Shown here piece after piece: positions 7,831 to 38,723 of a DNA stretch of 40,566 nt (position 1 is the first letter of the stretch; the number at the start of each line of letters is the position of its first letter). The DNA is from a virus. The stretch covers positions 1-40,566 of IMG/VR virus record IMGVR_UViG_3300025096_000049; one strand, given 5' to 3'. The notes under the pieces are model-generated. The model saw nothing but the letters and a program-made list of their open reading frames with translations. It was not told the DNA's origin and ran no database searches. Both the position numbers and the translations under genes were made by a program.

Positions 7831-8099
7831 AGCTTTTTGAAGACTTAGACTTCAAGGGTACTAAAAAGTGGAAAGAAGAACCACCTGGTACTTGCCCTTA
7901 TTGCCTATTTGAGGGGTCGATAAGTGGTATAGAGATACTTGGTGCCTATGATGGAACTCTATTCTGGGAATGTAAAAAATGCGGAGAAAGAATGTTGAGG
8001 TTCACTAAAGAAACTACTGTTAAACATTTATCTAAGACCGCAAATCTATTCATTGATTTAGAGGGACTAGATACTATATGGGAACAAATACCAAATTAG
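7803..8099 (+). CDS. Zinc-ribbon protein, hypothetical
   Basis: 98 aa from ATG 7803; a TTG nine bases earlier is possible. It has two Cys pairs, C-P-Y-C at about residue 33 and C-K-K-C at about 62, which form a likely zinc ribbon. It overlaps the endolysin end by 28 bases and the phosphoesterase start by 22. Function is unknown; the pairing with the phosphoesterase may be functional. Confidence 0.7.
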   Translation: MVQESKTGLELFEDLDFKGTKKWKEEPPGTCPYCLFEGSISGIEILGAYDGTLFWECKKCGERMLRFTKETTVKHLSKTANLFIDLEGLDTIWEQIPN

Positions 8100-20400: not shown

Positions 20401-23400
20401 GTTCTAAATATCCCTTAAAAATAGAGAGCTTTAGGACTATTATGTCTGAGATTACAAGCGAAAAGTATATAAAAAATCAGAGACTCCCTAAGCAGATGTT
20501 TACCACCCTTAGTATCTATGGATATAAGGATATAAAGCCTGAAACTATTAGGGAGATGTATGAAGAACTTTCTAATAGGGGTTTTAATGGTACTGAAAAA
20601 GGCAAAGAAGTTTCTTCTCGTTTTATAAAGACTCCAACTAATGACGATAATATAAAAGAGCTTGTTGATAACATTGAGGAAATACCAGTACAGAAGCTTT
20701 TAGAGATTATGCGTAATCCGAAATATGAGAAGTTCACTGTTAAAGCCTATGAGCAGATACTTAGGCTTAATAGAGAAATTACTGAGTCTCTTGCTGAAGA
20801 GTCTGAAATATCAAGGGTTGAGTTACAGAGGACTGCTGATATAGCAAGTGAATTTGAAACAATAATTGATAGGCTTGTAAAGCTCTATCCAGAGGGTTCA
20901 ATGGGTGCTTATCTTCATAAGTTTTCAAGAGATTATCGTATGACTGCTATGCGTAATTTTGTTATAACTCAATTAACAAGACCAAAGATTGAGAATAGCG
21001 CTACTGCCAGAATGAGACCGTGGGAAATCGGGTTGCGCCATGAAACAGAGGAATTAAAAAATAGAGACGATATTTTCTATCTTGATGATAGTTTTAAGTC
21101 TTTAAGGATAAATGACCCTATACTTATTAAGGGGAGAAACAGATTAGTTGATGTATGGAAGGACTTTGAGGATGGGGTATATAAGGGAGAGAGCAAGGAA
21201 ATTGTAAAAGAGATACTTAATGCAACTGTTATGAGAGTCCCTATGGACTCTATGAGCGGGGCAAATGTATTAGAGTTTAGGGGATTTACTGGTGTGCGTG
21301 GATACGGTTCTTTATTACACCCCAGGACAATGTCACAGCTTGGTGGTGCTGATTTAGACGGTGATAAAGCTTTTATATTTTTTGGTGGTGAAAGTGTTGG
21401 TTTTAGGAAGAGCTGGAAAGATATGTATAAAGCCCAGAGGAATGAATTTGTTGATTGGGGCGGTACAAAGATTAAAACACAAATATCTAAAACAAGTGGA
21501 GTAGATGTAATGAGGGGGTCTAAGTATGGTAATCCGTTTGTTCTTCCTACGGTTTATGATAAAAACCCAGCCTATTACAAGAAAAAAGGACACATAAGAA
21601 CTAGTAATAGAGAGGAGGCTATAGAGAGATATGATGCTTGGTTGCGTGGTACTGGTGATAAAGAGTATATGCCCAAGAAGAGAGAAGCGATATTAGAAGA
21701 TATTAAGTCTGGGAAATTAGTTGGTAAAACTTTAAAATATTTTAAGCCAAACGTATCTGATAGCCATGCAGTTAGGTTAGGTAAGTTAATTGATGAAATG
21801 GCTCCAGCGCCATTAAGGAGCAAGGGGTTTGAAAAGCCTAATAAAGATGCAAAAGACCCCCATGGTTTAGGTACATATAGGGAACAGCTTGCTGTTGATA
21901 ATGCTGAAATACAAACAGATGGAAGGAATACTGCTTCTCAATATAGTCCATATTGGAGAGAATTTATGTCTGAGGGTGCATCTAGTGGTAGAGATATGCT
22001 TGGGTTTGCGGTTACAAATAGAGCGGCTGTTATAGGCGCATATAATGCTTTGCGTAATTATAGTGGCGAAGAAAGAGCTTTGAATGAAATAGTATTAACT
22101 CGCCATGGTGAGATAGTTAAAGACAGTGATGGTAATCCACGAAAGGGAACAATTTACATTAATAAGGGAGAATATAGGGTTCCAGTAATTATAGGTGATA
22201 AGAACCAAGAGTATGATGTTGTTTTTAAAATAAAGACGAATGAAATGGATTTACAAAGATTTAGGGAAATGGCTAGGGCGTCTATTGCTCTGGGTTCAGA
22301 CCCAATGGATGAAGCTGGCCTACAAAAGATTGAGATATTTTCAAGGAAGGTTTTAGATACATTGTTTAATTATGAGATTCAAAAAAACGGGAAAATCGTT
22401 GAAAAACTTACAGAATTTCATGATGATTATGAGGGCATGGATTATCGTGGGAGGGGATTACATTCTCTTTTTAATCAAGTAAATAAAGTTTTATATAGTA
22501 AAAATTATGTAGAGGGCAGGGCTCATACATTTTCTGAAATTCAGGAGGGGGTTGAAGCTCTTGATGTATTACCAAAGGAAATAAGGAATACCTTAATGCC
22601 TATGGTAGCAGAGAGCTTGAAGAATGTTAATTGGAGCGATAATATATATAGACATGTTGACCATAAAAAATTGAATGCTTTATTTGCCCAACATAGAGTC
22701 TTTGTAGATGAGAATGAGGGTTTATTAGAAACACTTGGCAGGTCATCACTTGAAACCCCATATGGAAAAAATATAGATAGAATCTTTACTAATAGATTAT
22801 ATACCAGAGAGGGTATTGAGGCTATGGCTAAGGATAAGGAAAGATTCAAAGACCTTATATATGAACAGTTTCCCGATAATGATAGATATGTAATGGGTGA
22901 ACTTCCTTGGGGTCTAAAAATGGGAATAGACAGTTATAGTTATAGAAAGAACCATTTATATAAATTACTTTTAAAGGGAGAAGATTTTCTTGTAAATGAT
23001 ATTAGTGATATGGCATCTTTGAAAACTATAACCGATATTATCAAAAAGGGGGACTTTTCAAACGAATTTATAGTTGAAACACAGAAATTTGCAGAGGTCA
23101 TTAAGGATATGTCAGTACAAATGGCTAAAAGAAGACAAGATAAGGACGATTTAGTCAAGGACCACTCCTTTGACGAAACAAGTGAAAATAGAAAATTAAG
23201 AGAATTGGGGCGTGATAATTTCGGTATAGAAGATAAGGGCACTGCTAAGATTGACCAGGTAAGAATAGACCAGAAAATAAGAGGATGGAAAAGCAAAAAA
23301 ACTACATTAGAGAAAGACTTACTTGATACATTCCTACTAAGTACGTTTCAGCGTGGACACCTAGATTCTATAGCCAAGCTTAAACAAAGAGGTGGACTGA

Positions 23401-26400
23401 GGGACAAAGAATTATTAGAAAAGCTAGAAAAGCAAGCTAAGAACACATCATTAATGAGAGTTGCAATGAACTCTAAAGCGGTATCTGATAAAAATATAAA
23501 AAGGTTTTTCGACGACTATGATTCCCTTCTTAGTAAAACTAAGACTGATTTATCCGATGCTGAAAAAGAAATTGTTAGGAAGGAACAATCAGGTAAAGAC
23601 AAGGTCACTAGTTTTAGAGATGAAAACGGGAATCTTATAAAAGGAGAGATGATTGAGACATCTGACCTTTCAGAAACAGACAGAACCTACCTCGAACAAA
23701 TTGCCCCATTTGAAGGTATCAATAGAGGTGAGGTTTCCGACCCTCAGCTTAAAGAAGTTTACTTTTCCATCAAGGACCACCTCGAGCATTACCACAATCT
23801 TGATGCTCGTAATCTTAACGGGTTGTTTCGTGGTCTTTTAGGTAAGAATATTAACCAGGCTCACAAACAGGACTTGCTCACCCTTGATAGATATCTTAAA
23901 GAAATGCGTAATGGCACTTGGTTTAGAAAAGCGATGGATTGGATGCTTGGTAAGGAAAAACATCCAGATTTGAAACATTCTTATTATTGGACATTCCCTG
24001 AGAATGTAGATAGAAGCTTAATGCAGTCTCCAGCTATGACAGACTGGGTAAAAGATGTTGGTCCATATAAAGATAAGCGTGGTAATACTATTATGGGTGA
24101 GATAAAAAGACCGTCCAGTATGATGGGGAATCTCCAGCAATGGGCGGTTAATGCTCAAGAATATTCCATGCAGAGACATGAACAAGAAAAGGACAAGTTC
24201 AAAAAGATGTTACGACCATTTACTTCTGCTGTTGAGGACGGTGATGTTTTGTATGATATTGCAGTAGCTACGAGAGAAAGGCAGATGATAAAAGAGGTTC
24301 TTCGTCCAAAATATAAAGATAATAACCATCAGCTTACCCATTATGAGATGGATTATGAGAATAATTGGCAGAGTGTTAAGGGTAAATATAATGAATTAAA
24401 GGACAAGGTTTATCGAATCCCTATGGAGGAGGGCACGGTAATAATGACGGGAGATGAGGTTATAAAAAAGATAAATAAAGGGCTTACTAAGCAGAATGCA
24501 AAGACACATAAATGGCTTGTAGGAGATAAAACATTTATAGATGGCTGGTTGAGCAAGGGTGTTGATTCATTTGGGAATGTTACTCGAGGGAGCCTCCAGA
24601 AACTTCGTAAGGAATTTATGGAATACCTCACAGAAACCAATAGAAAACATGAGCAGATTCCTATTGAAAAGTTTGGTATAGATGGATTTAGACAGATTAC
24701 TAAGAGGGTTATATTAAGCCTTACTCCAGAAGGAACGCTTAAAAAGGGGGAATGGGAAAAAGCTTTGGAACAGTTAGAGATTACGCCTTTTGATGTTACT
24801 GGTGAATTGCCATTTCATGCTTATTATCCTCATATATCGTTTGATAGAAAGATTGCTAGCAATAGATTAAATAAGGCTATTGAGCATATCTTTGAAGACC
24901 CAAATATCACTAAGAAAGAAAAAGAGGCTGAATTACGCAAGCTTGTCTATCAATATAAACAGCTTACTGGTGATTTTATGGGCAAGGATGAAATGACTGA
25001 AAATTTTGATGTTATGCAAGATGCTCTAAAGGCTCATGCTGATGGGAAGAAACAAAAAGCTAAAAATATATTAATGCACGATTTAAAGCGTGTCGGCAAT
25101 CAGTTTAGTCGTAATGCTCATATAGGTGGATGGTCAAGAGAGCCAGAAGCTTATGAGCAGTATATGAAGAATATTATAGATACATTTAATAAGCAGGTTG
25201 GTCAGCTAGCTAGCAGGGTTGAAATGCAGAACTTTTATGAGAAGTTTCTTAAAAGTAGTAAAGATGCTGGTGTAAAGGACTATAAAGAGCTTACAGACCG
25301 TTGGATGCATTTCTTCAAATTATATACTCAGTCTATGATGGGTTATCCAGCACATATACCAGAGCATATTATGAATGACCCTAAGATGAAGATAAAGGCA
25401 ACACCTTATAAGTGGTTCGCAGATTCACAGGCTAAGAAACGCATAGATTATATTAAGAAACGCCTTGGTCTTGGTAGGAAAGAATTAGAAAAATGGAACT
25501 TAGATGAAACTACTGTTGATGAACTAAGTGGTGTTGAATATAGCCAGCTCCAAGCCTGGGGTGCTTTAGAGGCTAAGTGGCAGTTAGCATCATTATTGGC
25601 TCATCCTAAAAGCTCTATAGCTAACCTATATGGCGGTACTGTACATACCTGGATTAGTGCTGGTTCAAAAAACTTCTGGAATGGCAGGAATTTTGAGTAT
25701 TTACAAACCAATGTCAATCCTAAGTGGAAGAGTATGAAGGATGTGGAACAATGGATTAATGAGCTGGGCATTATAGAGGAATTTCTAATATATGAGGCAG
25801 GTCTAAATCCTAAGATTAAGACAAAAAGATTTGAGAACTTTGTTCAAGATGCTATAAAGAAAATAAAGAGAGACCCAGAAATGTCTGATACGAGTCTAAA
25901 CCAGCTTAGAAAAAAGTATGGAGTGACTGATACAGCCTGGAATTTTGCGGCATCGTTTATGCGTTTGCCTGAACGTATGCTTAGAAGAGATGCTTTTATG
26001 TCTCATTACTTAATGGCAAAAGAAAGATTTGGTGGAGCGATTAAAGATTATGATAATCCGTTCCTGATAAAAATGGCTAAACAGGGAGTAAAGGGTACAC
26101 AATTTCTATATAGTGCTCCCTATAGACCTATTTGGACTAATAGCACACTGGGTAGGGTGTTTTCTAGGTTCCAGTTATGGAGCTGGAATTCAGTGCGTTT
26201 TCGTAACGATACAATCAGACAAGCTCATATTCATGGTTTTCAAGAAGGAACTCCACAATATGAAAAGTTTGTACGTATGGCACAGGCAGATGCGTTCATG
26301 CTTGCTATGTCTTCTTTGTTTATGTACAGCTTGTTCGAAAACGCACTTCCAGCTCCGTGGAACTGGTTCCAAGATACAGCAGACTTATTAATGGGTGATG

Positions 26401-26714
26401 ATAAGGAAAAAGAGAGAGCCTTTTATGGCTCACCACTTGGTCCATTACAAGCTGTGGTTCCTCCAGCTTTGAGACTGTTGCCTCCATTATTCAAGGGAAT
26501 GATGACAGATAATTATAGTAAATTAACAGACTATTATTTATGGACTATACCGCCATTTGGAAGATTGGCTAGAGATATAATCGGACCAGGCGGTGCTATA
26601 GATAATCCATATTATGCAATAACGAAGTTTACGGGTATGCCAGTAATGCAAATAGCTGACTTAGTAAAGACAGAACGAGGGGAACGCCTCGGTGGAAAGT
26701 TTATTTATGGTTAA
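17484..26714 (+). CDS. Giant internal virion protein with RNA-polymerase-like (DLDGD) core and DUF4326-like insert
   Basis: 3076 aa from TTG with GGAGG upstream. Residues 80-300 are Gly/Ala-rich and hydrophobic in parts. About 880-910 reads T-D-G-A-I-Y-A then K-G-K-V-N-K-S. About 1260-1300 reads R-V-P-M-D, then L-H-P-R-T-M, then G-G-A-D-L-D-G-D-K-A-F with Asp 1290, 1292 and 1294. The arrangement (a conserved Lys region in a first barrel, D-x-D-G-D in a second) is that of double-psi-barrel RNA polymerases, including RNAi-type enzymes and crAss-like phage virion polymerases. A DUF4326-like segment follows at about 1340-1440. The C-terminal 230 residues, rich in Trp, Phe and Pro with a hydrophobic span (FMLAMSSLFMYSLF), resemble the tail of other giant phage polyvalent proteins. 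Its place after internal virion proteins suggests injection with the genome for early transcription. Activity is inferred. Confidence 0.7.
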   Translation: MAEPAEFKPRFSEEEISKLVSQYQLFPEAFDDREEDIDALEQHAYYYKKPFARSEDHQDSLITKTLKNFGRGWIEGYTTLPPEWVDKKLGTDIGEAPDSTGQAIARNLGHLAGFVGYLPGARVLGSKVIGAYKIAGAVQGLRGKSIPMRAANLAQKKVAEKVAPILDDLPKFMQNNELFKDMASGAFHLGVASGVSSWTHGVDEIFHGAGFGAVAGGAFRGIGNLKGFGERLQPHQLKPNGSPRLKDLQPGQHADLVARTMAGAAFQGLPATMQQATTEEQVYAYAMGAFFGFKETPYQTRVSREYINDSINKDHGPDPELNPKWDTITSEMQKIVKKDFNDFFGPEETRHIVFDLIKDRNISLEDIHKLSADYRKGMEIDEVTGEVSYPLSKTEIKEYKDTYKDDPRFEDPHDLDMHIARIADLPGKVAGKGGFVETEMEDVWKNASKKSGAGHDVERIKIADDIYKEWTKHHDRDGRPGHMAEQEIYKYLADTYGVNLNTEQKGWWRRWAENTRKKRWVDQIEVIRKVNPETKKQETTVGILTGKTNTVGNKKDLSQEPTIMEEIYTEIYKGYHNKPPERQEGFFRVLDHMVFNGKEYDLTRVLKAREDWHRSTMSFSKKKYGEESKWADYDAEEIKLQAEYLAKKEVSEAIDMVHNKMWKQGYYYMGGKGDNKKMYFVRKHPMLQKNIKKRNEFFNAMQRTFIKDGKRRWTRERKRFQRGEITKEEYNAIKSNLIKSKADFKRLYKSGLKRWKEKHPNIKEGSATKYKEMYINNALYDVLNNGYSIRKDNVLIDFEAGLSKAVGDGMINTPKGYNKRAQIWFNTGLSANPAHVFRHMSDAGVKSNGEHFQVGFFKDADKRIKKTLDSPAEDYQEITDGAIYAREGVVDALNLDKGLPTKGKVNKSFIVAPNDEHGAVLGKYMIHTASPRLEKYMKDNDLHMLIPETAAKQVGTRDIGELIEADSGIEFSGSKYPLKIESFRTIMSEITSEKYIKNQRLPKQMFTTLSIYGYKDIKPETIREMYEELSNRGFNGTEKGKEVSSRFIKTPTNDDNIKELVDNIEEIPVQKLLEIMRNPKYEKFTVKAYEQILRLNREITESLAEESEISRVELQRTADIASEFETIIDRLVKLYPEGSMGAYLHKFSRDYRMTAMRNFVITQLTRPKIENSATARMRPWEIGLRHETEELKNRDDIFYLDDSFKSLRINDPILIKGRNRLVDVWKDFEDGVYKGESKEIVKEILNATVMRVPMDSMSGANVLEFRGFTGVRGYGSLLHPRTMSQLGGADLDGDKAFIFFGGESVGFRKSWKDMYKAQRNEFVDWGGTKIKTQISKTSGVDVMRGSKYGNPFVLPTVYDKNPAYYKKKGHIRTSNREEAIERYDAWLRGTGDKEYMPKKREAILEDIKSGKLVGKTLKYFKPNVSDSHAVRLGKLIDEMAPAPLRSKGFEKPNKDAKDPHGLGTYREQLAVDNAEIQTDGRNTASQYSPYWREFMSEGASSGRDMLGFAVTNRAAVIGAYNALRNYSGEERALNEIVLTRHGEIVKDSDGNPRKGTIYINKGEYRVPVIIGDKNQEYDVVFKIKTNEMDLQRFREMARASIALGSDPMDEAGLQKIEIFSRKVLDTLFNYEIQKNGKIVEKLTEFHDDYEGMDYRGRGLHSLFNQVNKVLYSKNYVEGRAHTFSEIQEGVEALDVLPKEIRNTLMPMVAESLKNVNWSDNIYRHVDHKKLNALFAQHRVFVDENEGLLETLGRSSLETPYGKNIDRIFTNRLYTREGIEAMAKDKERFKDLIYEQFPDNDRYVMGELPWGLKMGIDSYSYRKNHLYKLLLKGEDFLVNDISDMASLKTITDIIKKGDFSNEFIVETQKFAEVIKDMSVQMAKRRQDKDDLVKDHSFDETSENRKLRELGRDNFGIEDKGTAKIDQVRIDQKIRGWKSKKTTLEKDLLDTFLLSTFQRGHLDSIAKLKQRGGLRDKELLEKLEKQAKNTSLMRVAMNSKAVSDKNIKRFFDDYDSLLSKTKTDLSDAEKEIVRKEQSGKDKVTSFRDENGNLIKGEMIETSDLSETDRTYLEQIAPFEGINRGEVSDPQLKEVYFSIKDHLEHYHNLDARNLNGLFRGLLGKNINQAHKQDLLTLDRYLKEMRNGTWFRKAMDWMLGKEKHPDLKHSYYWTFPENVDRSLMQSPAMTDWVKDVGPYKDKRGNTIMGEIKRPSSMMGNLQQWAVNAQEYSMQRHEQEKDKFKKMLRPFTSAVEDGDVLYDIAVATRERQMIKEVLRPKYKDNNHQLTHYEMDYENNWQSVKGKYNELKDKVYRIPMEEGTVIMTGDEVIKKINKGLTKQNAKTHKWLVGDKTFIDGWLSKGVDSFGNVTRGSLQKLRKEFMEYLTETNRKHEQIPIEKFGIDGFRQITKRVILSLTPEGTLKKGEWEKALEQLEITPFDVTGELPFHAYYPHISFDRKIASNRLNKAIEHIFEDPNITKKEKEAELRKLVYQYKQLTGDFMGKDEMTENFDVMQDALKAHADGKKQKAKNILMHDLKRVGNQFSRNAHIGGWSREPEAYEQYMKNIIDTFNKQVGQLASRVEMQNFYEKFLKSSKDAGVKDYKELTDRWMHFFKLYTQSMMGYPAHIPEHIMNDPKMKIKATPYKWFADSQAKKRIDYIKKRLGLGRKELEKWNLDETTVDELSGVEYSQLQAWGALEAKWQLASLLAHPKSSIANLYGGTVHTWISAGSKNFWNGRNFEYLQTNVNPKWKSMKDVEQWINELGIIEEFLIYEAGLNPKIKTKRFENFVQDAIKKIKRDPEMSDTSLNQLRKKYGVTDTAWNFAASFMRLPERMLRRDAFMSHYLMAKERFGGAIKDYDNPFLIKMAKQGVKGTQFLYSAPYRPIWTNSTLGRVFSRFQLWSWNSVRFRNDTIRQAHIHGFQEGTPQYEKFVRMAQADAFMLAMSSLFMYSLFENALPAPWNWFQDTADLLMGDDKEKERAFYGSPLGPLQAVVPPALRLLPPLFKGMMTDNYSKLTDYYLWTIPPFGRLARDIIGPGGAIDNPYYAITKFTGMPVMQIADLVKTERGERLGGKFIYG
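21501..21803 (+). other. DUF4326-like domain inserted in the giant protein
   Basis: This covers residues 1340-1440 of the 3076-aa protein. R-G-S-K-Y-G-N-P-F (from R1344), then R-E-E-A-I-E-R-Y-D-A-W-L, then G-K-L-V-G-K-T-L and S-H-A-V-R-L (H1428) follow the DUF4326 order. The usual C-W-C and C-H cysteines are replaced (K-Y-F...S-H), so any Cys-dependent metal site is lost. It lies about 50 residues after the D-L-D-G-D motif. DUF4326 has no established function that I can state. Confidence 0.65.
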
Positions 26715-29841: not shown

Positions 29842-30083
29842 ACTCTTGTACCGTATCTTCCGTTTTCAACACGAGTTCTAGATGTGAACTTCCTATTAGT
29901 TTTCCCTGCTATACGATTACAAGCTTGACTTACTAAGCCCTTCTTGAACTTGTCTTCAGGAATGAAAACTGATTGGTTGAGGTTAAGCTCTGCCAGAAAA
30001 CCATACTTAGATTTTCTTCGCTTATGCCATGTTGTGTCTACTTCAGGTATAGGGATATTATCCTCAAAAGTCCAATTACTCAT
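29826..30083 (-). CDS. Small conserved phage protein, hypothetical (85 aa)
   Basis: The order 'N-I-P-I-P-E', a short beta segment, 'S-V-F-I-P', a basic helix, then 'K-F-T-S-R...Y-G-T-R-V-W-R' matches a frequent short phage protein type that ends in R-V-W-R. Its function is not known. The start shares a base with the HNH gene stop (TAATG). Confidence 0.7.
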   Translation of the reverse strand: MSNWTFEDNIPIPEVDTTWHKRRKSKYGFLAELNLNQSVFIPEDKFKKGLVSQACNRIAGKTNRKFTSRTRVENGRYGTRVWRTK

Positions 30084-30523
30084 TAGTAACGTCCTCCCTT
30101 AGCGAGCTTCTTCATTACGTATACTCTTATTTCAGCAGGAAGCTCTTGTACTAGCTGAATGAGCATATTAAAGTCCTCTTCATCTAGAGGACCCTTTCTT
30201 GTATTACAAGTTTTGCAAATTAATTGGAGATTCTTTACAGAAGTTTCTCCTTTTTTAGATAGTGGGATTATATGGTCACATGCTATGGTTTTATAAGTGA
30301 GCCTTTTCTCACAATATTTACAATCATCACCATAAGAGCCATAGAACATTTTTCTTATTTCGTCTCTTTCTATTGAAAAAGCTACATCATATTCTTCACT
30401 TCTTCTCTTTAGACTGCTGTATAGTACACTCATCTTTGCAGAAAGTTTTTTATATGCTTTCTCCCAAAAGTGTTTATGTATGGGTTCAAGCACATCTTTA
30501 AATTGTTTTTTATCTAGCTTCAT
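30083..30523 (-). CDS. HNH endonuclease
   Basis: 146 aa. C-K-Y-C, then C-D-H-I-I-P-L-S with the catalytic His, then N-L-Q-L-I-C-K-T-C-N: a complete zinc-stabilised HNH fold at about residues 78-122. It cleaves DNA with a single metal ion. It has no obvious second domain, so it could be free-standing and homing-like or a DNA-processing enzyme of the phage. The start lacks a clear ribosome site and follows a hairpin. Confidence 0.88.
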   Translation of the reverse strand: MKLDKKQFKDVLEPIHKHFWEKAYKKLSAKMSVLYSSLKRRSEEYDVAFSIERDEIRKMFYGSYGDDCKYCEKRLTYKTIACDHIIPLSKKGETSVKNLQLICKTCNTRKGPLDEEDFNMLIQLVQELPAEIRVYVMKKLAKGGRY

Positions 30524-30811: not shown

Positions 30812-30975
30812 CTATTCCTCTCCTCGTATACTAAGTGTAGATGTATTCCAGCTCTCCAAATAGAGAATGAAAAATCTACAAAGTTGTTGTCAAATAGTAT
30901 TGCAAATTGCAAGAATCTGAATATAGTTATAATCATTCCTGTTTGAGGGAATGCTATATCTAGTATTCGTCCCAT
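30778..30975 (-). CDS. Small hydrophobic protein, hypothetical (65 aa)
   Basis: It starts at ATG with a strong AAGGAGG, and TAATG overlaps the upstream stop. The N-terminal half is hydrophobic and aromatic (TGMIITIFRFLQFAILF, near residues 12-28), possibly membrane-associated. It overlaps the HTH gene by 34 bases. No family is recognised. Confidence 0.6.
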   Translation of the reverse strand: MGRILDIAFPQTGMIITIFRFLQFAILFDNNFVDFSFSIWRAGIHLHLVYEERNRCLEIVKHKQT

Positions 30976-31499
30976 TAAGACCTCCTTACTCGCTTTACCT
31001 TCTGAATAAAGAAACCTGGTATATCTACACCAGAAGTAAGGTCTTTACGAGCCTTTTTCTTATCTAAAGACTCTACCATCTCTACTTTCTTGTATTCATC
31101 TGGAACAGCATCTTCATCAGATACTATTACTGGTCCGAAAGTTTCAAATAACTTGTATCTAGCTGTATTCGTTTCATAGACACCGTTTCTTCCAACTTCT
31201 TCTATAACCATAGGTATAAGAGTTTCATTAAAGTATTTCTTTAATGACGCTGTAGCTTTTCTCCTTACCTTTAGTCTCTTTATTTCATCGCTCAAAGCTA
31301 GAATCTCAGCATCTATCATATGGGTCTTTCTTTCAATACCCACCATAAATACATCTATGTTATCGACTTTGCGTTTAATCTGACCACTAACACCTACCAA
31401 GGCATCCTCTATTGGTCCCTTATCCTCCAATTCCTGTTCTAATTGAACCTGAAGGTCTATGTACTCGCCTATGAGTTCTTTAGTTGTCAATTTCTGCAT
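30975..31499 (-). CDS. Siphovirus Gp157-like protein
   Basis: 174 aa. A long helical N-terminal half is followed by a beta part and the family-type end 'V-P-D-E-Y-K-K-V-E...L-D-K-K-K-A-R-K-D-L-x-x-G-V-D-I-P-G-F'. Members of this family sit in phage replication/recombination operons next to single-strand annealing or RecA-like genes, as here. Biochemical role is unclear. Confidence 0.72.
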   Translation of the reverse strand: MQKLTTKELIGEYIDLQVQLEQELEDKGPIEDALVGVSGQIKRKVDNIDVFMVGIERKTHMIDAEILALSDEIKRLKVRRKATASLKKYFNETLIPMVIEEVGRNGVYETNTARYKLFETFGPVIVSDEDAVPDEYKKVEMVESLDKKKARKDLTSGVDIPGFFIQKVKRVRRS

Positions 31500-31767
31500 C
31501 GTCTTCTTTCTCTTTCAGTAAAGCTTCTACCTTAGGAATATCCCATCCTTTACTTCTTAATGCTTGTTTTAAACTAGTCGACAAAGGTCCTTTCCATGCT
31601 TTTGGTTTACTACCAGAAATACTTTCGACCATAATTTGCGATTTAATAAACTGTTCAATTATATATTCCAGTTGTTTTCGCATACTACGTTTTTCTTTTT
31701 GAGCAATATTCATTAGTGCCATCTTTGTATCTAAAGAAACCTCTGTTTTTACAACATGCTTTTTCAT
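31480..31767 (-). CDS. Ribbon-helix-helix-like protein
   Basis: 95 aa from ATG 31767, preceded by AAGGAG and overlapping the primase-helicase stop as ATGA. Residues 1-40 (KKHVVKTEVSLDTKMALMNI and on) fit an Arc/MetJ-type ribbon-helix-helix DNA-binding fold. The rest is basic and then acidic. It is a possible operon regulator or replication accessory. Confidence 0.65.
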   Translation of the reverse strand: MKKHVVKTEVSLDTKMALMNIAQKEKRSMRKQLEYIIEQFIKSQIMVESISGSKPKAWKGPLSTSLKQALRSKGWDIPKVEALLKEKEDDAEIDN

Positions 31768-33554
31768 GTTTCTATTCTCCTTACTGGTAATCTGAATGAA
31801 GGTGTCCATTCAAGGTCTACATCAAATAAGTCGCCATCACTATTCTTAAATAGAGATACTTGCTTTGTTGGATTATCTTGGGTACCGTTAATTCCTATTA
31901 CCTTTCTTGATGCGTTCTCTATAGCACCGCTACCTTTACCAGCATAAATATCAAGGATTTGATTCCTTGAATACTCTCTTGAAACCTGAGATATCTGTAT
32001 AATAATGATATCAAGATTTACTGCTAGATTAGATAGAAAGTGACTTATGTTTCGAACTTGTTCATATTCTCCTCTGTAAGATTTTCCAGCATCTATTAAG
32101 TCAATATAATCTATGACCATAAGATTAGGCTGTAGTTCTCTTACCTGTTTCAAAATCATTTCAGTTGTTGGTGAGATTGTTTGAATATTAACATGCTCTA
32201 AATAGCTATTATACTTTTTAGAGACATACTTATTATTCCCTGTTACCTCTTCCTTTGAAAGACCGCTAACAATTTGTTGATTTCTACGATGCATATACCA
32301 GCCACTAAGTTCTAGTGAAAGATATAATGTTGGCATGTGCCAATCTGTATTGATTGTATCATTGTGGAAATCATATCCAAGGACAATATTTTGAGCCAAT
32401 GTTGTCTTATTTGCTCCAGTAGGACCAAATATTGTTACTAGCTCACCAGGATATATATCACAGTCCTTATCATAAAGACCAAACATCTGTGCCAGGTTAA
32501 TCATTCTACCTGTGAAATCAGATGTAAGTCTCTCTTCTAAGTCTTTCTGTAAATCCCGTGTTGTTTTGATATCTACTAAGTAACTCTTGTTCTTATAGTA
32601 AATACACTTAGGGTTGCAAACTGATTTTAAAATCTCATCATGGCATCCATATTGATATCCGTAGTTATATGTGGATTCGACCTTTTCCATAACTATCTCT
32701 GGTTCGAGTTGGTTATCATTCCAAGCAAGCAAGGATGCTTTAGTGGCATCACTTGGTATGCCATGTCTTTTAAAATGAGATGCTATTCTTAATAATACAT
32801 TATTCCTAGTGCCTTGTTGTGGACCATTATTATATAAGGTCTGTATGCAAGGTACTACATTATTAGGCTCTGAAACATGTTTCATTGTCCTAATATCAGG
32901 TACATCAGTGTCTATTAAGTGTTCAAGACTACCATCTCCCCATAGGTCATGTTGACCAAATGACAGTCTTCTATCCTTAGCTAATTCAAGGATAGTATTA
33001 ACATCTCCAAAAAGCTCATCTATTGTAAGAGGAACTTTATACAGTTTTGATTTTTTGTTTAATGTATGTGGAAGGCGTATGATAGAAGTCCTACTATAGA
33101 CACTACCATCTATTCTGAAATTGGGTAAAACATTATTTACCATTGTCTGCTTAACCATAAAAGGAAGGGTAGCTCCTGGTCTAAAGCCAAAACATTCATT
33201 ACTTATTTCAATGTGGTATCCCGTACCACTAAAGAATATTGCAAAATTTCCATCTTTCAATCCTAATTCAGATTGTAGATGATATAAAATGGTTTGTGCT
33301 TGAGACAGGGTATATTCATTTGAATTTTGACCCTTATCAATATCAATAGGTATTGAATTAATATGTCTAGTTCCAACAAACTTTTTAAGCGTACCCTTCT
33401 TATTTATATAGTTTACAGCTTCTTCATCATATTGATATACAGATGTGTAAACAGCATCTTTCTCTCCACTTTCAAATACGATATCCCATACATCATTTAT
33501 AGAAACGAGAGTCCCCCGTTTAGAGGGACTCCCGATTGCTACTTCAACATACAT
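31764..33554 (-). CDS. AEP-type primase / DnaB-RecA-fold helicase
   Basis: 596 aa. The N-terminal third shows the archaeo-eukaryotic primase motifs: I-D-I-D (D71, D73), S-G-T-G-Y-H (H114), and R-I-D-G-S...R-L-P-H-T-L-N. A Cys cluster at C304, C313 and C317 may bind metal. The C-terminal part is a RecA/DnaB-like ATPase with G-P-T-G-A-N-K-T (K383) as Walker A and L-M-V-I-D-Y as Walker B, then Q-I-S-Q. The Walker A has Asn where Gly is usual before the Lys. It should prime and unwind DNA at the phage fork. Genes on both sides overlap it by ATGA. Confidence 0.85.
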   Translation of the reverse strand: MYVEVAIGSPSKRGTLVSINDVWDIVFESGEKDAVYTSVYQYDEEAVNYINKKGTLKKFVGTRHINSIPIDIDKGQNSNEYTLSQAQTILYHLQSELGLKDGNFAIFFSGTGYHIEISNECFGFRPGATLPFMVKQTMVNNVLPNFRIDGSVYSRTSIIRLPHTLNKKSKLYKVPLTIDELFGDVNTILELAKDRRLSFGQHDLWGDGSLEHLIDTDVPDIRTMKHVSEPNNVVPCIQTLYNNGPQQGTRNNVLLRIASHFKRHGIPSDATKASLLAWNDNQLEPEIVMEKVESTYNYGYQYGCHDEILKSVCNPKCIYYKNKSYLVDIKTTRDLQKDLEERLTSDFTGRMINLAQMFGLYDKDCDIYPGELVTIFGPTGANKTTLAQNIVLGYDFHNDTINTDWHMPTLYLSLELSGWYMHRRNQQIVSGLSKEEVTGNNKYVSKKYNSYLEHVNIQTISPTTEMILKQVRELQPNLMVIDYIDLIDAGKSYRGEYEQVRNISHFLSNLAVNLDIIIIQISQVSREYSRNQILDIYAGKGSGAIENASRKVIGINGTQDNPTKQVSLFKNSDGDLFDVDLEWTPSFRLPVRRIET

Positions 33555-34165
33555 TAGAAACTAGTAGTTCCCTCTGTAGATGCTGTGTTGACTCCATTAG
33601 TAGGAGTCGGCTGTTCTATGACCTCCTTAATAAGGTTCTTAGACTTCATAAAGGCTATGTAACCCTCGATGTCTTTTAAACCTTTAGGAGTGTTTGGAAC
33701 CAACTTAGGAAATACAGCATTATACAATTTAGACGGGTCTTTATAACCCTTCTCTTTGTAAATGTATGCTATATACTCCAATTTAGGGTCCAATGGATTA
33801 GTAACATGGTTTTGATTAAGATGATTAACGAGATTTAACTCCTCACCATCTGCATCTACCATAGTACCACCAATATCAGGACCGCCGTCAAAGCCTATAG
33901 TATCAAAAAGCCAATAAAGTCTTTTCAATAGTGTACAGGTTTTAATGTTGCCATTTGTTTCTCTATCATAAGAACCCGCAAGTTTCATCTCTATCGGATA
34001 CTGCGAATCTTCTTGTTTAAGAGTAGCAACTAGGTAGACGTCAGCCCAATCAAATTGGTCTGCTCGGTCTTCCCAATCGACAATCCCTACTTTTTGAAAA
34101 CCTATCCAGCTTTTACCGTTACCGGATAACTGTAGGTCATCAGGGCGAAAACGAGTATTACTCAC
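33554..34165 (-). CDS. Putative ssDNA-binding protein
   Basis: 203 aa, beta-rich N-terminal half (WADVYLVATLKQ, IEMKLAGSYD), a helical middle, and a low-complexity tail (PTPTNGVNTASTEGTTSF) ending in Phe. It lies between a Sak4/RecA-like gene and the primase-helicase with ATGA overlaps on both sides. In phages that slot is often taken by a single-strand binding protein. Identity is from context and general shape only. Confidence 0.5.
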   Translation of the reverse strand: MSNTRFRPDDLQLSGNGKSWIGFQKVGIVDWEDRADQFDWADVYLVATLKQEDSQYPIEMKLAGSYDRETNGNIKTCTLLKRLYWLFDTIGFDGGPDIGGTMVDADGEELNLVNHLNQNHVTNPLDPKLEYIAYIYKEKGYKDPSKLYNAVFPKLVPNTPKGLKDIEGYIAFMKSKNLIKEVIEQPTPTNGVNTASTEGTTSF

Positions 34166-35022
34166 TTTTCCTCCTTGTAGTTAAGGATTTCAGATGATAT
34201 TACTTCATAATCAAATAATAAAACCTTTTGAGAAAGAGGCTTTAAGCGACTGCCTACAACCCTTTCATCATAAGCTTCAAATGATATATAGTATTTACCA
34301 TCTTCCTTTGATGCTGTAGTATACCCGATTATATCAGCTTTAGCCGCTAATGAATAACCGAGTCCTCTTGGAAGTTCAGGTGCTAGTTGCACCTTCCCAT
34401 CTTGTAATTGTGAAGTCTTTGAATGACTTACTAAAACAAGATTTCCACCCTTCTTCTTGATGAGAGTCTGAAACCGTTTGACAATATCTAGATTTCTACG
34501 TCTAGCTTTACCCCAATCGGCTCCCCATTGACCCTCTCCCATAGCTGTGATACCTAGTTCATGAACAACAGAATGTTCAATCCATTCGTTAATCTGACCA
34601 ACAGTATCTATTACTATAGTATCATATGGAAGTTTATCCCACTCTGTATTTAGCCATCCATAGACTTCTGCCATTGAATAAGCTGGCAACGGGGTCCCTT
34701 TATCAGCACCGGAGCGATGATTGAAACCCCGTTCTTCGGGTGGAATAATTTCAGTTTTAGGTATACCTTTATCTGTTACCTGCTTGCCTTTATGCATTAC
34801 AGGTCTCATTGGCGGATTTAAACCACTAATAGCTATAGTATTAGCCCCATCAACAAAATCAGAGCCAAGGTCAGCATCAAGTAATATGACACCATCTTGA
34901 CCCTTTGTACTCCACCTTGAAGCGGCTGTGGTTTTCCCAGTTTTAGGCTGACCTATTATAAGATATGTCAGACCGGAAGGCATTGCTTTCCAATCCGTTG
35001 ATACTTTGCGTACCTGTATCAT
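34162..35022 (-). CDS. Sak4/RecA-like recombination ATPase
   Basis: 286 aa. Walker A G-Q-P-K-T-G-K-T-T (G24-T32), Walker B Y-D-T-I-V-I-D, and L-V-L-V-S-H-S-K fit the phage RecA-core ATPases (AAA_24/Sak4) that aid single-strand annealing and replication-linked recombination. The start has a strong AAGGAGG site placed inside the E1-like gene, giving an 80-base overlap. That physically links the ubiquitin-like module to recombination. Confidence 0.85.
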   Translation of the reverse strand: MIQVRKVSTDWKAMPSGLTYLIIGQPKTGKTTAASRWSTKGQDGVILLDADLGSDFVDGANTIAISGLNPPMRPVMHKGKQVTDKGIPKTEIIPPEERGFNHRSGADKGTPLPAYSMAEVYGWLNTEWDKLPYDTIVIDTVGQINEWIEHSVVHELGITAMGEGQWGADWGKARRRNLDIVKRFQTLIKKKGGNLVLVSHSKTSQLQDGKVQLAPELPRGLGYSLAAKADIIGYTTASKEDGKYYISFEAYDERVVGSRLKPLSQKVLLFDYEVISSEILNYKEEK

Positions 35023-35710
35023 GTGATACCTCCTTATTTAGATTTGGAGTTATTAGAGTACCAAATTCGACAATATTTGGGCTCAGGCTAGTCCAAATAT
35101 AGTCATAATGTGCTAAATTAGCAACAAGATTATACATTTGAGACAGTCCTAAGGAAACAATATGCATTGTTGCAAATACAGTATGTTTCTGTGAACATGG
35201 TGCTGGCGGTACAGTATGAGTCGGAACCCATGTATCCATATAATTATCATTATCCTTTGTTACAGTAACGATTTCCACGCTTGTAGCACCCATTCTAAGG
35301 TCTATAAGGAACTCTCTTCCTTCAAACATTTTCCAATTATTATAAACCATCCTTCTTGATTCCATATCATCAGTACAGACAATCACCTTAGTAGTTAATT
35401 CTGAAAATTGAGCACCTCCAATAAAATGCTCATGTGGATGAAACTCCTGGGTATCATCAGAATAGCTATCAAATAATGAATGAGCCGCTACTCTCTTCAT
35501 TACAATATTTTCTGTATTAAGTGGGTAACAGGTTGTACTAAAATTATGATTCTCTACATCATCGCTATCATATCCGTGTACATCTTTCCATCCCATCATG
35601 GCTAATCCCTGTACTAAGAATGAACCAATCCCGCCTAACCCTATAATACTTATTACATCTAAGCATTCTTGAGGTATTAGGTCTTTGTTTCTTAAGAATC
35701 TACTGTCCAT
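34943..35710 (-). CDS. E1-like (ThiF/MoeB superfamily) adenylating enzyme
   Basis: 255 aa. Rossmann motif G-L-G-G-I-G at 24-29, acidic end of strand 2 (Y-D-S-D-D-V-E, D48), N56, K72 and C-T-D-D (112-115) fit an E1/ThiF adenylation domain. C172 in A-P-C-S-Q-K-H-T-V-F lies where the thioester-forming Cys loop of E1-like proteins is expected. The usual R-Q after the Asn is replaced (N-F-S-T-T-C), so one catalytic Arg seems absent. It would activate the C-terminus of the beta-grasp protein encoded three kilobases upstream. It has AAAGGAAA before its ATG. Confidence 0.82.
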   Translation of the reverse strand: MDSRFLRNKDLIPQECLDVISIIGLGGIGSFLVQGLAMMGWKDVHGYDSDDVENHNFSTTCYPLNTENIVMKRVAAHSLFDSYSDDTQEFHPHEHFIGGAQFSELTTKVIVCTDDMESRRMVYNNWKMFEGREFLIDLRMGATSVEIVTVTKDNDNYMDTWVPTHTVPPAPCSQKHTVFATMHIVSLGLSQMYNLVANLAHYDYIWTSLSPNIVEFGTLITPNLNKEVSHDTGTQSINGLESNAFRSDISYNRSA

Positions 35711-35762
35711 CAGTATGTTTCCTTTATTTTATAAGTTTTTCAAACTCAGAATTAAACTAATT

Positions 35763-35781
35763 AAACTAATTTTATTAGTTT
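35763..35781. repeat. AAACTAAT inverted and direct repeats before the E1-like gene
   Basis: AAACTAAT, TTT, ATTAGTTT form a perfect 8-bp palindrome. TTAAACTAA is also tandemly repeated at about 35753-35770, and another AAACTAAT lies at 35886-35893 at the end of the JAB gene. The copies therefore flank the structured RNA element. It could be an operator or a recombination scar. Confidence 0.55.
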
Positions 35782-35790
35782 CTCAAAGGT

Positions 35791-35878
35791 AAAGGGGGCA
35801 ATCCTGGGCTATTTCCAATCCCCACATTGATAATAGCCAGGGCAACAAGCGGAGTGTGTGCATGCTTATGCCCCCTTT
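35791..35878 (-). ncRNA. Structured three-way-junction RNA between JAB and E1-like genes
   Basis: Outer stem: AAAGGGGGCA (35791-35800) pairs perfectly with TGCCCCCTTT (35869-35878). Arm 1: CCTGGGCTATT (803-813 of 35 kb) pairs with AATAGCCAGG (832-841) with one bulged G; the apex is CAAT/ATTG around CCCCAC. Arm 2: AAGC (847-850) pairs with GCTT (864-867). The three stems meet in a compact junction of about 88 bases with no gene of its own. It lies in the longest intergenic gap of the minus unit (35711-35883). It may be a cis-regulatory element or a stable small RNA; its class is not recognised. On the minus strand a short A/T tract follows, so an attenuator role is possible. Confidence 0.6.
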
Positions 35879-35883
35879 GTAGT

Positions 35884-36714
35884 TTAAACTAATCCAATAG
35901 TTTGTTGATGAGGATTATCCACCCAGAGGTGTATATCCATATTAGGACATTTCTTCTTAGCCTCTTCAAGTAACTCATGATAAGTAATCTTATTCATTTC
36001 ATAACTTTCAATTAGCTCTTCCATTATATCCCAATCTGCCTTGGTACCTCCACTGTATTTACTCACCCCATAGTTATAATTACCATATCCTCCAACTGAA
36101 TTAAGGTGACCAAAACCATTGTAATAGGTTGTAGTGGGTTTCTTTACATCTTGTTTCTTCTTCATTTTCTGAATGTAATTAGCCTCAGCTTGCCAACTCT
36201 TATCTATTTCAACATTGATAAGTGGCTCTGTTGCCCCTTTGATTAGTCTGTCAAAACCAAACTGGTCTTTATATGTCAGACATGTCTCAAAGCGTTCATT
36301 CTTACTTGCTACTATTGTAGAAAAGAAGATTCCGTCCTTTGATGCTTGTTCTAGTGCTGTATCTTTATCTGTCTTACTGATAAATGCACCCATAGTATGA
36401 TGACTATGAATCAATCCAAGATAATAATCCTTTAATTCAGGTATTTTCTTATAGATTTTGGGTAAAAGCTTACCCATCTTGTCACCATCTATTTCGGTTT
36501 CAGCACCACTCCCTAAATGAATTGCCTTGAAAAACCTCAAGACAACATTCTTAGGAAAGCCTGTTTTTGTTGTTTCAACTATCTCGTACCAGGCTGGTCC
36601 ACTCCACTCTTCACTATTGAAGCGACCTAATAGATAATTGATTTTATGCAACATTCGTTCTGGGATTCCCAGGTTGAACAACCTCTTCTTCCCATCTGTA
36701 GTGTTCTTTTGCAT
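35884..36714 (-). CDS. JAB/JAMM (MPN) metalloprotease, Ubl-deconjugating or processing
   Basis: 276 aa. The JAMM motif is complete: E35/E36 in S-E-E-W-S-G, then H-S-H-x7-S-x2-D (H103, H105, S113, D116). Such enzymes cut isopeptide or peptide bonds after ubiquitin-like tails using zinc. The JAB domain fills about residues 10-170. A Gly/Tyr-rich linker (YNGFGHLNSVGGYGNYNYG) and a helical C-terminal part follow. The last residues are T-I-G-L-V, close to the T-S-G-L-V end of the Ubl. The start lies 71 bases inside the E2-like gene, behind GGGAG. Confidence 0.88.
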   Translation of the reverse strand: MQKNTTDGKKRLFNLGIPERMLHKINYLLGRFNSEEWSGPAWYEIVETTKTGFPKNVVLRFFKAIHLGSGAETEIDGDKMGKLLPKIYKKIPELKDYYLGLIHSHHTMGAFISKTDKDTALEQASKDGIFFSTIVASKNERFETCLTYKDQFGFDRLIKGATEPLINVEIDKSWQAEANYIQKMKKKQDVKKPTTTYYNGFGHLNSVGGYGNYNYGVSKYSGGTKADWDIMEELIESYEMNKITYHELLEEAKKKCPNMDIHLWVDNPHQQTIGLV

Positions 36715-38314
36715 TTTTCATTCTCCCGTTTAACTGTTTCATACAGATTTTTGTGTATCTTTCTATACCAAGACATACAAAATGATATATTATTCTATTC
36801 CTCGATTCTTCATCATCAATTACATTATGGAAAAGAGTAAACATATTATCAAAGGGTGCTGTATCATCTAACATATTTCTATCACTAAGATAGTCATCTT
36901 CAGATATTTCAATCCCAACTTTTATCAATTCATTTGCATCCCAGACTTTTTCATTATATGCAAATGTCAACATGTTCTCAAGTATATGAAATGTATTCTG
37001 TGTAGATGAACGAGTTCCCGTATGCCATCTTGGTCTATAGCCTATGTAATCTAACAAAACCACATAGTAATCTTCTTCAGAAAGAAAGCCTCTATTAATG
37101 ATGCTTTTCCCTCTATTTGCATTACGCATGGTTTCAAATACTTCTCCAATATCAATCATTTCAACACGAGCTTGTTGTGGTCTCAATTCCCTTGCTCTTG
37201 AATTTAAGGTTTCACTCATTCTTTGTATTAAAGTAGAGAGATTCCAACCAGGGGGATAATTCCCATCGCTATCTTGAACTAAATGTATATGCTTTACTGT
37301 ACCATAATCCAATTTATCAAGACCATAGAGCATAGCATCACCAACCAATCGTTTAGAAACCCAATATGCACATCCAATTTCTTCTGTTAATATATCAGTA
37401 ATCCCTGTTATCATTCGGTCTAACATGTGAATAGTAGAATTAAGTTTCTTTAACTTCCCTGATTCAGTATCCGCAGTATTCTTACTACTTATTACAGTAG
37501 CTAAATAATAATCATAAATCTTCCATTTGTAATCATCACCATTTTCATGGCATAATTGTTGAATGATTTCATAATTACTTGCTAACCAACTCCAAGTAAG
37601 CTTAGGACTCCATCTGTATGATGATTCAATATTCCTAGCTAACCTTTGCCAAAGAAATGCATGTTGAAGGCATTTTTGGAAAGGAAAGAACTCACTTAAG
37701 CCACGTTGTGGATAGTTAAATATGTTATCCCAATCTCTGTACTGTCTATTTATGTCCCAATATGAATCAGCCCTTGTCCATGTATTAAGAAAACTCTTAG
37801 CTACATTTATTAAGGATGGGATATCTCCAGATGAAATTGCATAAGACCATGCATTACTCCAGCCACCTAAACATGGCTGTCCATCTGGATTAATATGCGG
37901 ATGCATACTAGTTGTACCCCAATTTAATAAAGGATAAAGTCCTGTATTAGTGAAAGAACTTTGTATAGTAGACCACCATTCAGGCATGTCATTTCCTGTG
38001 TTTAATATTTTTACATTACTCGGTTGAGCACTATTAAACTGTAATGAATGTTCGGGTAAAGTATAATTAGTAGTCCCACGAAACCTAGGATGACCAATAT
38101 ATACTTTAAAGACTTTCTCTGTATTGTGTTCAAAATCATCCTGAATGTCATAGACATAAACTTTATTAAGAAAAGCATTTGCTGTATTCTCAGCAGTTGT
38201 CCTATCCATTCTATCGCCTTGATAGTGAGCATTACTTAGTATCCAGCTTTTTACAGCATTCTGTAGCTTATACCATTCTGACTCACTATTCGTCGTCGTT
38301 GCTTGATTCTCCAT
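36644..38314 (-). CDS. E2-like (UBC-fold) conjugating protein with long C-terminal extension
   Basis: 556 aa with a GAGGAGG-type site. Residues about 60-200 hold the UBC-like block of prokaryotic E2 relatives: strands around V-F-K-V-Y-I-G-H-P-R-F, then H138-P-H140...G-Q-P-C148-L-G, then helices (S-L-I-N-V-A-K-S-F-L). C148 is the candidate thioester Cys, and H-P-H takes the place of the eukaryotic H-P-N. The remaining 350 residues are helical and match nothing I recognise; they could select targets. In the order of the operon it lies between the Ubl and the JAB gene. Confidence 0.8.
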   Translation of the reverse strand: MENQATTTNSESEWYKLQNAVKSWILSNAHYQGDRMDRTTAENTANAFLNKVYVYDIQDDFEHNTEKVFKVYIGHPRFRGTTNYTLPEHSLQFNSAQPSNVKILNTGNDMPEWWSTIQSSFTNTGLYPLLNWGTTSMHPHINPDGQPCLGGWSNAWSYAISSGDIPSLINVAKSFLNTWTRADSYWDINRQYRDWDNIFNYPQRGLSEFFPFQKCLQHAFLWQRLARNIESSYRWSPKLTWSWLASNYEIIQQLCHENGDDYKWKIYDYYLATVISSKNTADTESGKLKKLNSTIHMLDRMITGITDILTEEIGCAYWVSKRLVGDAMLYGLDKLDYGTVKHIHLVQDSDGNYPPGWNLSTLIQRMSETLNSRARELRPQQARVEMIDIGEVFETMRNANRGKSIINRGFLSEEDYYVVLLDYIGYRPRWHTGTRSSTQNTFHILENMLTFAYNEKVWDANELIKVGIEISEDDYLSDRNMLDDTAPFDNMFTLFHNVIDDEESRNRIIYHFVCLGIERYTKICMKQLNGRMKNAKEHYRWEEEVVQPGNPRTNVA

Positions 38315-38456
38315 TCTCTTCCTCCTCTTCAGTTTCTTCTTCTAAACTTGTGAGAAAACTATCAACTGGGTTTGCAACCCAATTAGGAATATCGGAAATG
38401 TATTCCTCTGTACCGTCTTCCCACCCTATTTTAATTGTCCAATGTATTATTTTCAT
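38286..38456 (-). CDS. Small acidic protein between Ubl and E2 genes (56 aa)
   Basis: ATG 38456 opens M-K-I-I-H-W-T-I-K-I-G-W-E-D-G-T-E-E-Y, a short beta-hairpin-like start, followed by P-N-W-V and a strongly acidic tail (EEETEEEEENGESSNDDE). It overlaps the E2 start by 29 bases, so the two are translationally linked. It could be a small partner of the conjugation enzymes. No family is recognised. Confidence 0.65.
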   Translation of the reverse strand: MKIIHWTIKIGWEDGTEEYISDIPNWVANPVDSFLTSLEEETEEEEENGESSNDDE

Positions 38457-38467
38457 TTTATAGTCAT

Positions 38468-38500
38468 CGGCTGGGGGATATAAATACCCCCCATAGACCG
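38468..38500 (-). promoter_or_regulatory. Hairpin between Ubl and the downstream E2 operon part
   Basis: TGGGGG (38472-38477) pairs with CCCCCA (38488-38493), with an outer CGG/CCG pairing across a small internal loop. It lies just after the Ubl stop and before the 56-aa gene. There is no T-run on the minus strand, so it may stabilise the Ubl mRNA end or attenuate, letting Ubl be made in excess over the enzymes. Confidence 0.5.
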
Positions 38501-38516
38501 AATCTTTTCGTCTAGA

Positions 38517-38723
38517 CTATACTAAGCCAGAAGTCACTTTATCAGTTACGAATGCGACAAAATCATCATCTCGTAAAGATGTAGTGGCTTCAGCCTTTTT
38601 AGAATTGACGTTAATTGTGGTATTATCCAACGATTGTCCCAAAGACTCTGCTATATCAGCAGGAGTGTTTGCTTCCATCGATTTAACAACACCACCAAAG
38701 GTTTGAACTAGTACTTTAGCCAT
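38517..38723 (-). CDS. Ubiquitin-like beta-grasp protein (Ubl)
   Basis: 68 aa with an AAAGGGG ribosome site. The pattern is that of ThiS/MoaD-type and phage Ubl beta-grasp domains: strand K-V-L-V-Q-T-F-G-G, strand V-K-S-M-E-A, helix T-P-A-D-I-A-E-S-L-G, strand T-T-I-N-V-N, S-L-R-D-D-D-F-V-A-F-V. It ends D-K-V-T-S-G-L-V, with no terminal Gly-Gly. Trimming of L67-V68 by the JAB protease would expose Gly66, which is a proposal. It should be the protein that the E1-like and E2-like enzymes act on. Fold call from pattern and operon context. Confidence 0.75.
   Translation of the reverse strand: MAKVLVQTFGGVVKSMEANTPADIAESLGQSLDNTTINVNSKKAEATTSLRDDDFVAFVTDKVTSGLV

Follow-up and report, generated by a model that had tools for sequence, protein, structure and literature searches.

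A predicted ubiquitin-like conjugation module beside the replication genes of marine and crAss-like phages

The window analysed here is the whole 40,566-base stretch of an IMG/VR record of a marine phage (IMGVR_UViG_3300025096_000049). A module of four genes on its minus strand (38723-34943) encodes a ubiquitin-like protein (Ubl), an E2-like protein, a JAB/JAMM metalloprotease and an E1/ThiF-like enzyme. The module is probably a virus-encoded ubiquitin-like conjugation cascade and a core part of the replication module. This reading follows from the Ubl fold, the E1 homology, the JAMM motif, the conservation of the E2 active site, the co-occurrence of the genes and purifying selection. It also draws on the Ser-Gly (SG) and tail pattern of the Ubl, on introns at His-Ser-His (HSH) codons and on the lack of homologs in the cellular genome collection. 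The coordinates, strand and order of the open reading frames (ORFs) in the initial annotation were exact, and the residues it cited (C148, H103/H105 and C172) were correct. The features of the module are as follows (aa, amino acids; AF2, AlphaFold2).

38517..38723, minus strand: Ubl, 68-aa ubiquitin-like beta-grasp protein (fold model, Foldseek, C-terminal SG)
36644..38314, minus strand: E2-like protein, 556 aa, with an N-terminal UBC-like domain and a large, fast-diverging helical C-terminal domain (motif, AF2 model, UBE2W profile match)
37745..38203, minus strand: UBC-like region of the E2, residues about 38-190 (AF2 model)
37871..37903, minus strand: E2 active-site motif H138-P-H140-I-N-P-D-G-Q-P-C148 (invariant columns)
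36644..36714, minus strand: 71-bp stretch shared by the 3' end of the E2 gene and the 5' end of the JAB gene (reading frames)
35884..36714, minus strand: JAB/JAMM metalloprotease, 276 aa (Prok-JAB, JAMM motif)
36367..36408, minus strand: JAMM motif H103-S-H105-x7-S113-x2-D116, with E36 (invariant residues)
34943..35710, minus strand: E1/ThiF-like adenylating enzyme, 255 aa (PF00899, PDB E1 profile matches)

The four module proteins

The AF2 model of the Ubl (pLDDT 88) showed the topology b-b-a-b-b-b. Foldseek against the PDB gave TtuB as the best match, together with ubiquitin, SUMO and Caldiarchaeum ubiquitin, at a probability of 1.00, and the beta-grasp fold proposed in the initial annotation was confirmed. 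The Pfam matches were weak (TGS 3.6e-4, ThiS 5e-3). The Ser-Gly pair was fixed in 24 diverse Ubls and kept in 37/37 marine relatives, which provides an invariant glycine for C-terminal activation. Variability starts right after this pair, with a tail of 0-8 residues; in the window, Gly66 (38526-38528) is followed by Leu-Val, and in some Ubls Ser-Gly is the extreme C-terminus. Because an invariant SG is followed by a variable tail and the JAB gene adjoins, the Ubl looks like a precursor whose tail is trimmed by the JAB. Between near relatives, the Ubl differed by zero or one amino-acid change.

The E1 matched PF00899 at 7.9e-8, above the curated cut-off, and its profile matches in the PDB included NEDD8-E1, UBA5, UBA6 and MccB. 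The GLGGIG loop spans residues 24-29, and the crossover-region cysteine C172 is encoded at 35195-35197. GxGGxG was present in 58/58 relatives and the catalytic Cys in 57/58. Weak E1 matches were found on plasmids, one of them adjoining genes of the type for ribosomally synthesised and post-translationally modified peptides.

The window JAB matched Prok-JAB at 3.8e-4, with 20.7 bits just below the gathering score of 25, and all 29 JAB relatives scanned matched this profile (best 9.8e-7). The motif E..HxH(x7)SxxD was kept in 67/67 sequences, and E36, H103, S104, H105, S113 and D116 were invariant across marine and crAss JABs. The JAB profile had no match in the PDB.

The E2-like protein is the most divergent in its C-terminal part: median pairwise identity was 66% near the active site and 16-22% in the C-terminal domain. 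In a set of 24 divergent E2s, where the other representatives share 11-25% identity with the window E2, the only invariant columns were M1, H138, P139, H140, C148 and G150. HPH..CxG was kept in 49/49 complete marine homologs. The distance of 10 residues from His138 to Cys148 is that of the UBE2W segment HPHVYSNGHIC. In the E2 profile search UBE2W came top of 177,635 PDB sequences (E 0.4, non-significant alone), and in the alignment the catalytic Cys and a conserved downstream Trp coincide. The histidine-cysteine site with E2 spacing was found both in the marine homologs and in this alignment. HPH likewise replaces HPN in Ube2w-family E2s (PMC4630614). The AF2 model (pLDDT 75) showed the order of UBC elements, namely helix 38-49, strands 54-59, 67-74, 89-94 and 102-105, HPH138-140, C148 and helices 150-162 and 165-176, followed by a long helical domain. 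We consider the assignment as an E2 to be of good but not final confidence, and the modelled UBC fold to be provisional.

Conservation and genomic context

Viral searches returned 36 loci or matches for the E1, 27 for the Ubl and 211 for the JAB. In every non-redundant marine viral locus with sufficient flanking sequence on either side (36/36), all four genes were present, and the complete Ubl/E2/JAB/E1 set proposed initially was borne out. The marine order is Ubl, E2, JAB, a 145-aa protein in most loci, E1, Sak4, SSB-like protein and primase-helicase. The frames of E2 and JAB overlapped by 14-188 bp in 48/48 marine-type loci listed. All four module genes are under purifying selection; the dN/dS was 0.06-0.31 for E2, JAB and E1, and the median pairwise identity was 83% for the Ubl, 76% for the E1 and 57% for the JAB. 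No relatives of the E1 or JAB were found in about 85,000 cellular genomes.

Three trivial origins were rejected. Chance ORFs were ruled out by conservation and dN/dS, prophage decay by the intact genes everywhere, and host genes binned into a viral contig by the phage neighbours and the isolate phages. The earlier proposal that the module is owned by the phage is supported.

In the window, the transcription order on the minus strand is Ubl, E2-like, JAB, E1, then Sak4, a 203-aa protein and primase-helicase. The module lies within the Sak4/SSB-like/primase-helicase operon, as had been proposed. The E1 gene overlaps the Sak4 5' end by 80 bp. A gap of 202 bp, which holds a small acidic ORF, separates Ubl and E2, and JAB and E1 are 173 bp apart. 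The other features of this region are given below (ssDNA, single-stranded DNA; SSB, single-stranded DNA-binding protein).

38286..38456, minus strand: small acidic ORF, 56 aa, between Ubl and E2 (no family match)
34162..35022, minus strand: Sak4-like ssDNA-annealing ATPase, context (phrog_124 3.6e-24)
33554..34165, minus strand: conserved 203-aa protein beside Sak4, "SSB-like" in the initial annotation, context (conserved in relatives)
31764..33554, minus strand: primase-helicase, context (DnaB_C 6e-13, PriCT_1 1.5e-5, phrog_19 1.3e-27)

The 203-aa protein had no Pfam or PHROG match. The 56-aa acidic ORF was present solely in the window's own clade among the relatives compared, and it may be a gene. 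In most marine relatives, JAB and E1 are separated by the conserved protein of about 145 aa (MMTVPQKKYFC..., L012:9561-10001 and equivalents). It is missing from the window's clade, has no Pfam match, and is a candidate accessory factor. A Mu Gam-like end-protection protein (30975-31499, phrog_253 1.4e-16) and an HNH endonuclease (30083-30523), both in the same operon direction, were also found in the window. A tail-fibre protein (265-5553) and a metallo-phosphoesterase (8078-8872) are encoded on its plus strand.

When the JAB was searched against phage records by tblastn, crAss-like phages and Flavobacterium phages were obtained. The same order of four adjacent genes was found in DAC15, crAss001, Kolpuevirus, several other Steigviridae, bajarodcaudo virus 1, Dulem virus 41 and FpV4. 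The crAss-type set consists of a protein with a beta-grasp-like N-terminus ending in KxxSG and a long extension, an HSH...CxG protein, a JAB and an E1. These genes are annotated as hypothetical, metalloprotease or thiamine biosynthesis; in crAss001 they are, in module order, gp79, gp78, gp77 ("metalloprotease") and gp76 ("thiamine biosynthesis protein"). In one related virus, the E1 already carries the label "E1 enzyme family protein". All four genes were in order in 82/82 crAss-type loci with enough upstream sequence, 71 of them plain and 11 with one gene split, and the overlap of E2 and JAB was also seen in crAss001 and other crAss-type records. The module is far more general than the window alone could show, being present in both marine and crAss-like phages.

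Marine and crAss proteins matched each other at 3e-27 for the E1, 1e-17 to 1e-27 for the JAB and 2e-5 for the Ubl, with the SG ends aligned. The E2 match by hhalign was weak, with E about 5e-3 however built, and HxH and CLG were aligned. No counterparts of the marine Sak4, SSB-like and primase-helicase profiles were found in crAss records, so these profiles give no support to a replication operon shared by descent. The Ubl module is the only link seen here between the window virus and Crassvirales. A GADLDGD motif, of the type seen in crAss-type virion RNA polymerases, lies in a 3076-aa protein of the window (17484-26714), and the DxDGD region of this protein matched no phage record by tblastn.

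Group I introns (Rfam RF00028) were found in three split crAss-type loci (L137:3585-3844, L154:4271-4483 and L168:2243-2474). In the JAB of L137 and L154, exon 1 ends in ...LIH and the downstream frame starts at or just after the HSH motif, resuming with STFFSGTD in L137 and SHNN in L154. In the E2 of L168, exon 1 ends in ...DYMH and the downstream frame resumes with SHIC. The frames would place these introns at or beside the codons of the His-Ser-His active site in both JAB and E2. Group I introns typically sit in conserved sites of important genes, and their position here is independent support that the HSH motifs of both proteins matter. The split JABs of L155 and L162 had no intron match at gathering level, and L187 lay outside the intron scan.

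Other variations were seen in crAss-type loci. In phage cr106_1, an HNH endonuclease gene (3047-3562) splits the Ubl gene in two (L130:2767-3970). One crAss-type Ubl extension, probably that of L131, has a match to the C-terminal domain of ribosomal L7/L12 (5.1e-12), as a fusion after the Ubl domain. The gene directly after E1 (crAss001 gp75, L124:7738-8550 and equivalents) is conserved and has no Pfam match; its product could be an E3-like or target protein.

Proposed mechanism and rival explanations

We infer the chemistry and the targets of the module from the genes, folds (provisional for the E2), motifs, order and conservation observed above. The Ubl would be cut by the JAB after the invariant Ser-Gly, exposing Gly66. 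The glycine C-terminus would be adenylated by the E1 and then held as a thioester on C172, as the ThiF/E1 homology and the conserved Cys suggest. The Ubl would move to C148 of the E2, where the HPH histidine would act as in Ube2w-type E2s. The large, fast-evolving C-terminal domain of the E2 would pick the target without a separate E3, and no E3 was found among the module neighbours tested. The JAB could then remove the tag again. The most likely targets would be phage proteins of replication or recombination, or host proteins encountered where replication takes place, because the module adjoins replication genes in two phage groups that are far apart. Either target class would be compatible with the fast-evolving E2 domain.

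Several observations weigh against a conjugation cascade. The Ubl ends in SG, unlike the GG of most conjugated Ubls, and the E1 is minimal, without a UFD-like domain. The E-values to UBE2W were 0.08-0.4 across the E2 profile searches. The window E2 was unrecognised by Pfam, NCBIfam, PHROGs and PADLOC, with UQ_con reaching just 0.17 in one relative. Although the E2 model has the UBC order of elements, the full-length model had no significant Foldseek match in the PDB (highest probability 0.16, the TSG101 UEV domain), and its only BFVD matches were two viral proteins without a name (E 6e-4 and 7.7e-3). The motif as searched was absent from 7/71 crAss-type E2 ORFs, some of which are probably split or mis-delimited genes.

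The doubts about the E2 lead to one rival explanation, in which the middle protein is a Cys/His enzyme unrelated to E2s and the module consists of just Ubl, E1 and JAB with a partner. The lack of a significant profile or fold match to E2s would fit this, as would the different and variable HSH-Cys spacing in crAss-type proteins and the weak marine-crAss hhalign match (E about 0.005). However, the marine proteins hold the E2 spacing and the downstream Trp, UBE2W is their top PDB match, the model has the UBC order, and the operon content equals that of known Ubl-E2-JAB-E1 sets. We regard an unrelated enzyme as very improbable. A sulfur-carrier pathway was also considered, in which the E1 would thiocarboxylate the Ubl glycine, the Ubl would give sulfur to tRNA or nucleotides in the manner of TtuB, ThiS or MoaD, the JAB would free the carrier C-terminus and the E2-like protein would be the sulfur acceptor enzyme. 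TtuB as the best Foldseek match of the Ubl, the weak TGS/ThiS matches and the minimal, ThiF-like E1 speak for it. However, TtuB is known both as a sulfur carrier and as a conjugated protein. The conserved HPH..C site at E2 spacing points to transfer of the Ubl itself, and no sulfurtransferase, rhodanese, cysteine desulfurase or TtuA-like gene was found among the module neighbours tested. A sulfur carrier seems quite unlikely.

Counter-defence concerns the role of the module. The phage cascade or its JAB would counteract antiviral Ubl systems of the host (CBASS Cap2/Cap3, Bil) by blocking or reversing them, or would inactivate other defence proteins of the host by tagging them. Anti-defence genes of the accessory kind usually have a patchy distribution, whereas no relative with sufficient flanking sequence lacked the module (36/36 and 82/82), which lies beside replication genes, not in an accessory locus. 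The fast divergence of the E2 C-terminal domain is what would be expected of a part facing varied partners, and phages are indeed a target of host Ubl systems (Nature 2023, PMC10097602). Counter-defence appears unlikely, and a conjugation cascade within the replication module is preferred.

Comparison with known systems

Iyer et al. 2006 predicted Ubl/E1/E2/JAB operons in bacteria and gave the lambda tail genes for Ubl and JAB as the phage example (PMC1779556). The class 6d Ubl-JAB-E1-E2 operons described there have the four components in common with the phage module. They also contain an extra helical protein, and most marine relatives have the 145-aa protein between JAB and E1. However, 6d E2s are without the classical His, whereas HPH is invariant in the marine phage E2s, and the phage system is viral. 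Lambda TAPI (Ubl, with a conserved C-terminal Gly) and TAPK (JAB protease) are likewise phage-encoded, but they are tail genes without E1 or E2 (PMC1779556), whereas the present genes are in a replication operon. The phage E2 shares HPH for HPN, the His-to-Cys spacing and the downstream Trp with Ube2w-family E2s (PMC4630614), but it has no overall sequence similarity to them, and it differs by an insertion ahead of the active site and by a long additional C-terminal domain.

Bil (BilABCD, ISG15-like) also has separate Ubl, E1, E2 and JAB genes, and conjugation is probable in both systems. However, Bil is a host defence, whereas the phage module is virus-owned and in a replication context, and its gene order differs from that of Bil. 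The Bil/ISG15 component models gave no match in PADLOC-DB 2023. The PRTRC models of NCBIfam were far below cut-off (PRTRC_ThiF E 0.025, 13.9 vs 144.75 bits; PRTRC_A E 0.12), and PRTRC-type clusters are a possible relative. The initial comparison with Bil holds as a functional likeness and fails as membership, since no Bil or PRTRC match was above cut-off in PADLOC or NCBIfam. CBASS type II shares E1, E2 and JAB chemistry, and weak PADLOC matches to its E1-E2 and JAB were obtained. However, Cap2 is an E1-E2 fusion, whereas the phage has separate E1 and E2 and a dedicated Ubl. Membership in CBASS type II was ruled out by the separate genes and by the absence of a CD-NTase match among the proteins scanned.

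No description of the phage module was found in the open-licence literature, and it may have been noticed earlier elsewhere. No mention of ubiquitin or ThiF in crAss-like phages was found in the literature searched, including the crAss genome papers PMC7886860 and PMC6235969.

The widest interpretation is one on which we are evenly divided. The Ubl cascade would be ancient, would belong to the core of the replication module in a broad range of tailed phages, including gut crAss-like and marine ones, and would probably be essential there. It would tag replisome or host proteins during infection through a Ser-Gly-ending Ubl and an HPH/HSH E2, as a viral branch distinct from the defence operons of bacteria.

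In prokaryotes, ubiquitin-like conjugation is known mainly from anti-phage defence in bacteria; here a whole cascade would be carried by phages themselves, as a fixed part of the genome next to replication genes. The proposal is directly testable because Flavobacterium phages and cultured crAss-like phages of the gut (crAss001, DAC15) are among the lineages. Annotations are offered for four conserved genes labelled hypothetical, metalloprotease or thiamine biosynthesis. The module raises the question of what the phage tags, and it would extend the history of ubiquitin-type systems by a viral branch.

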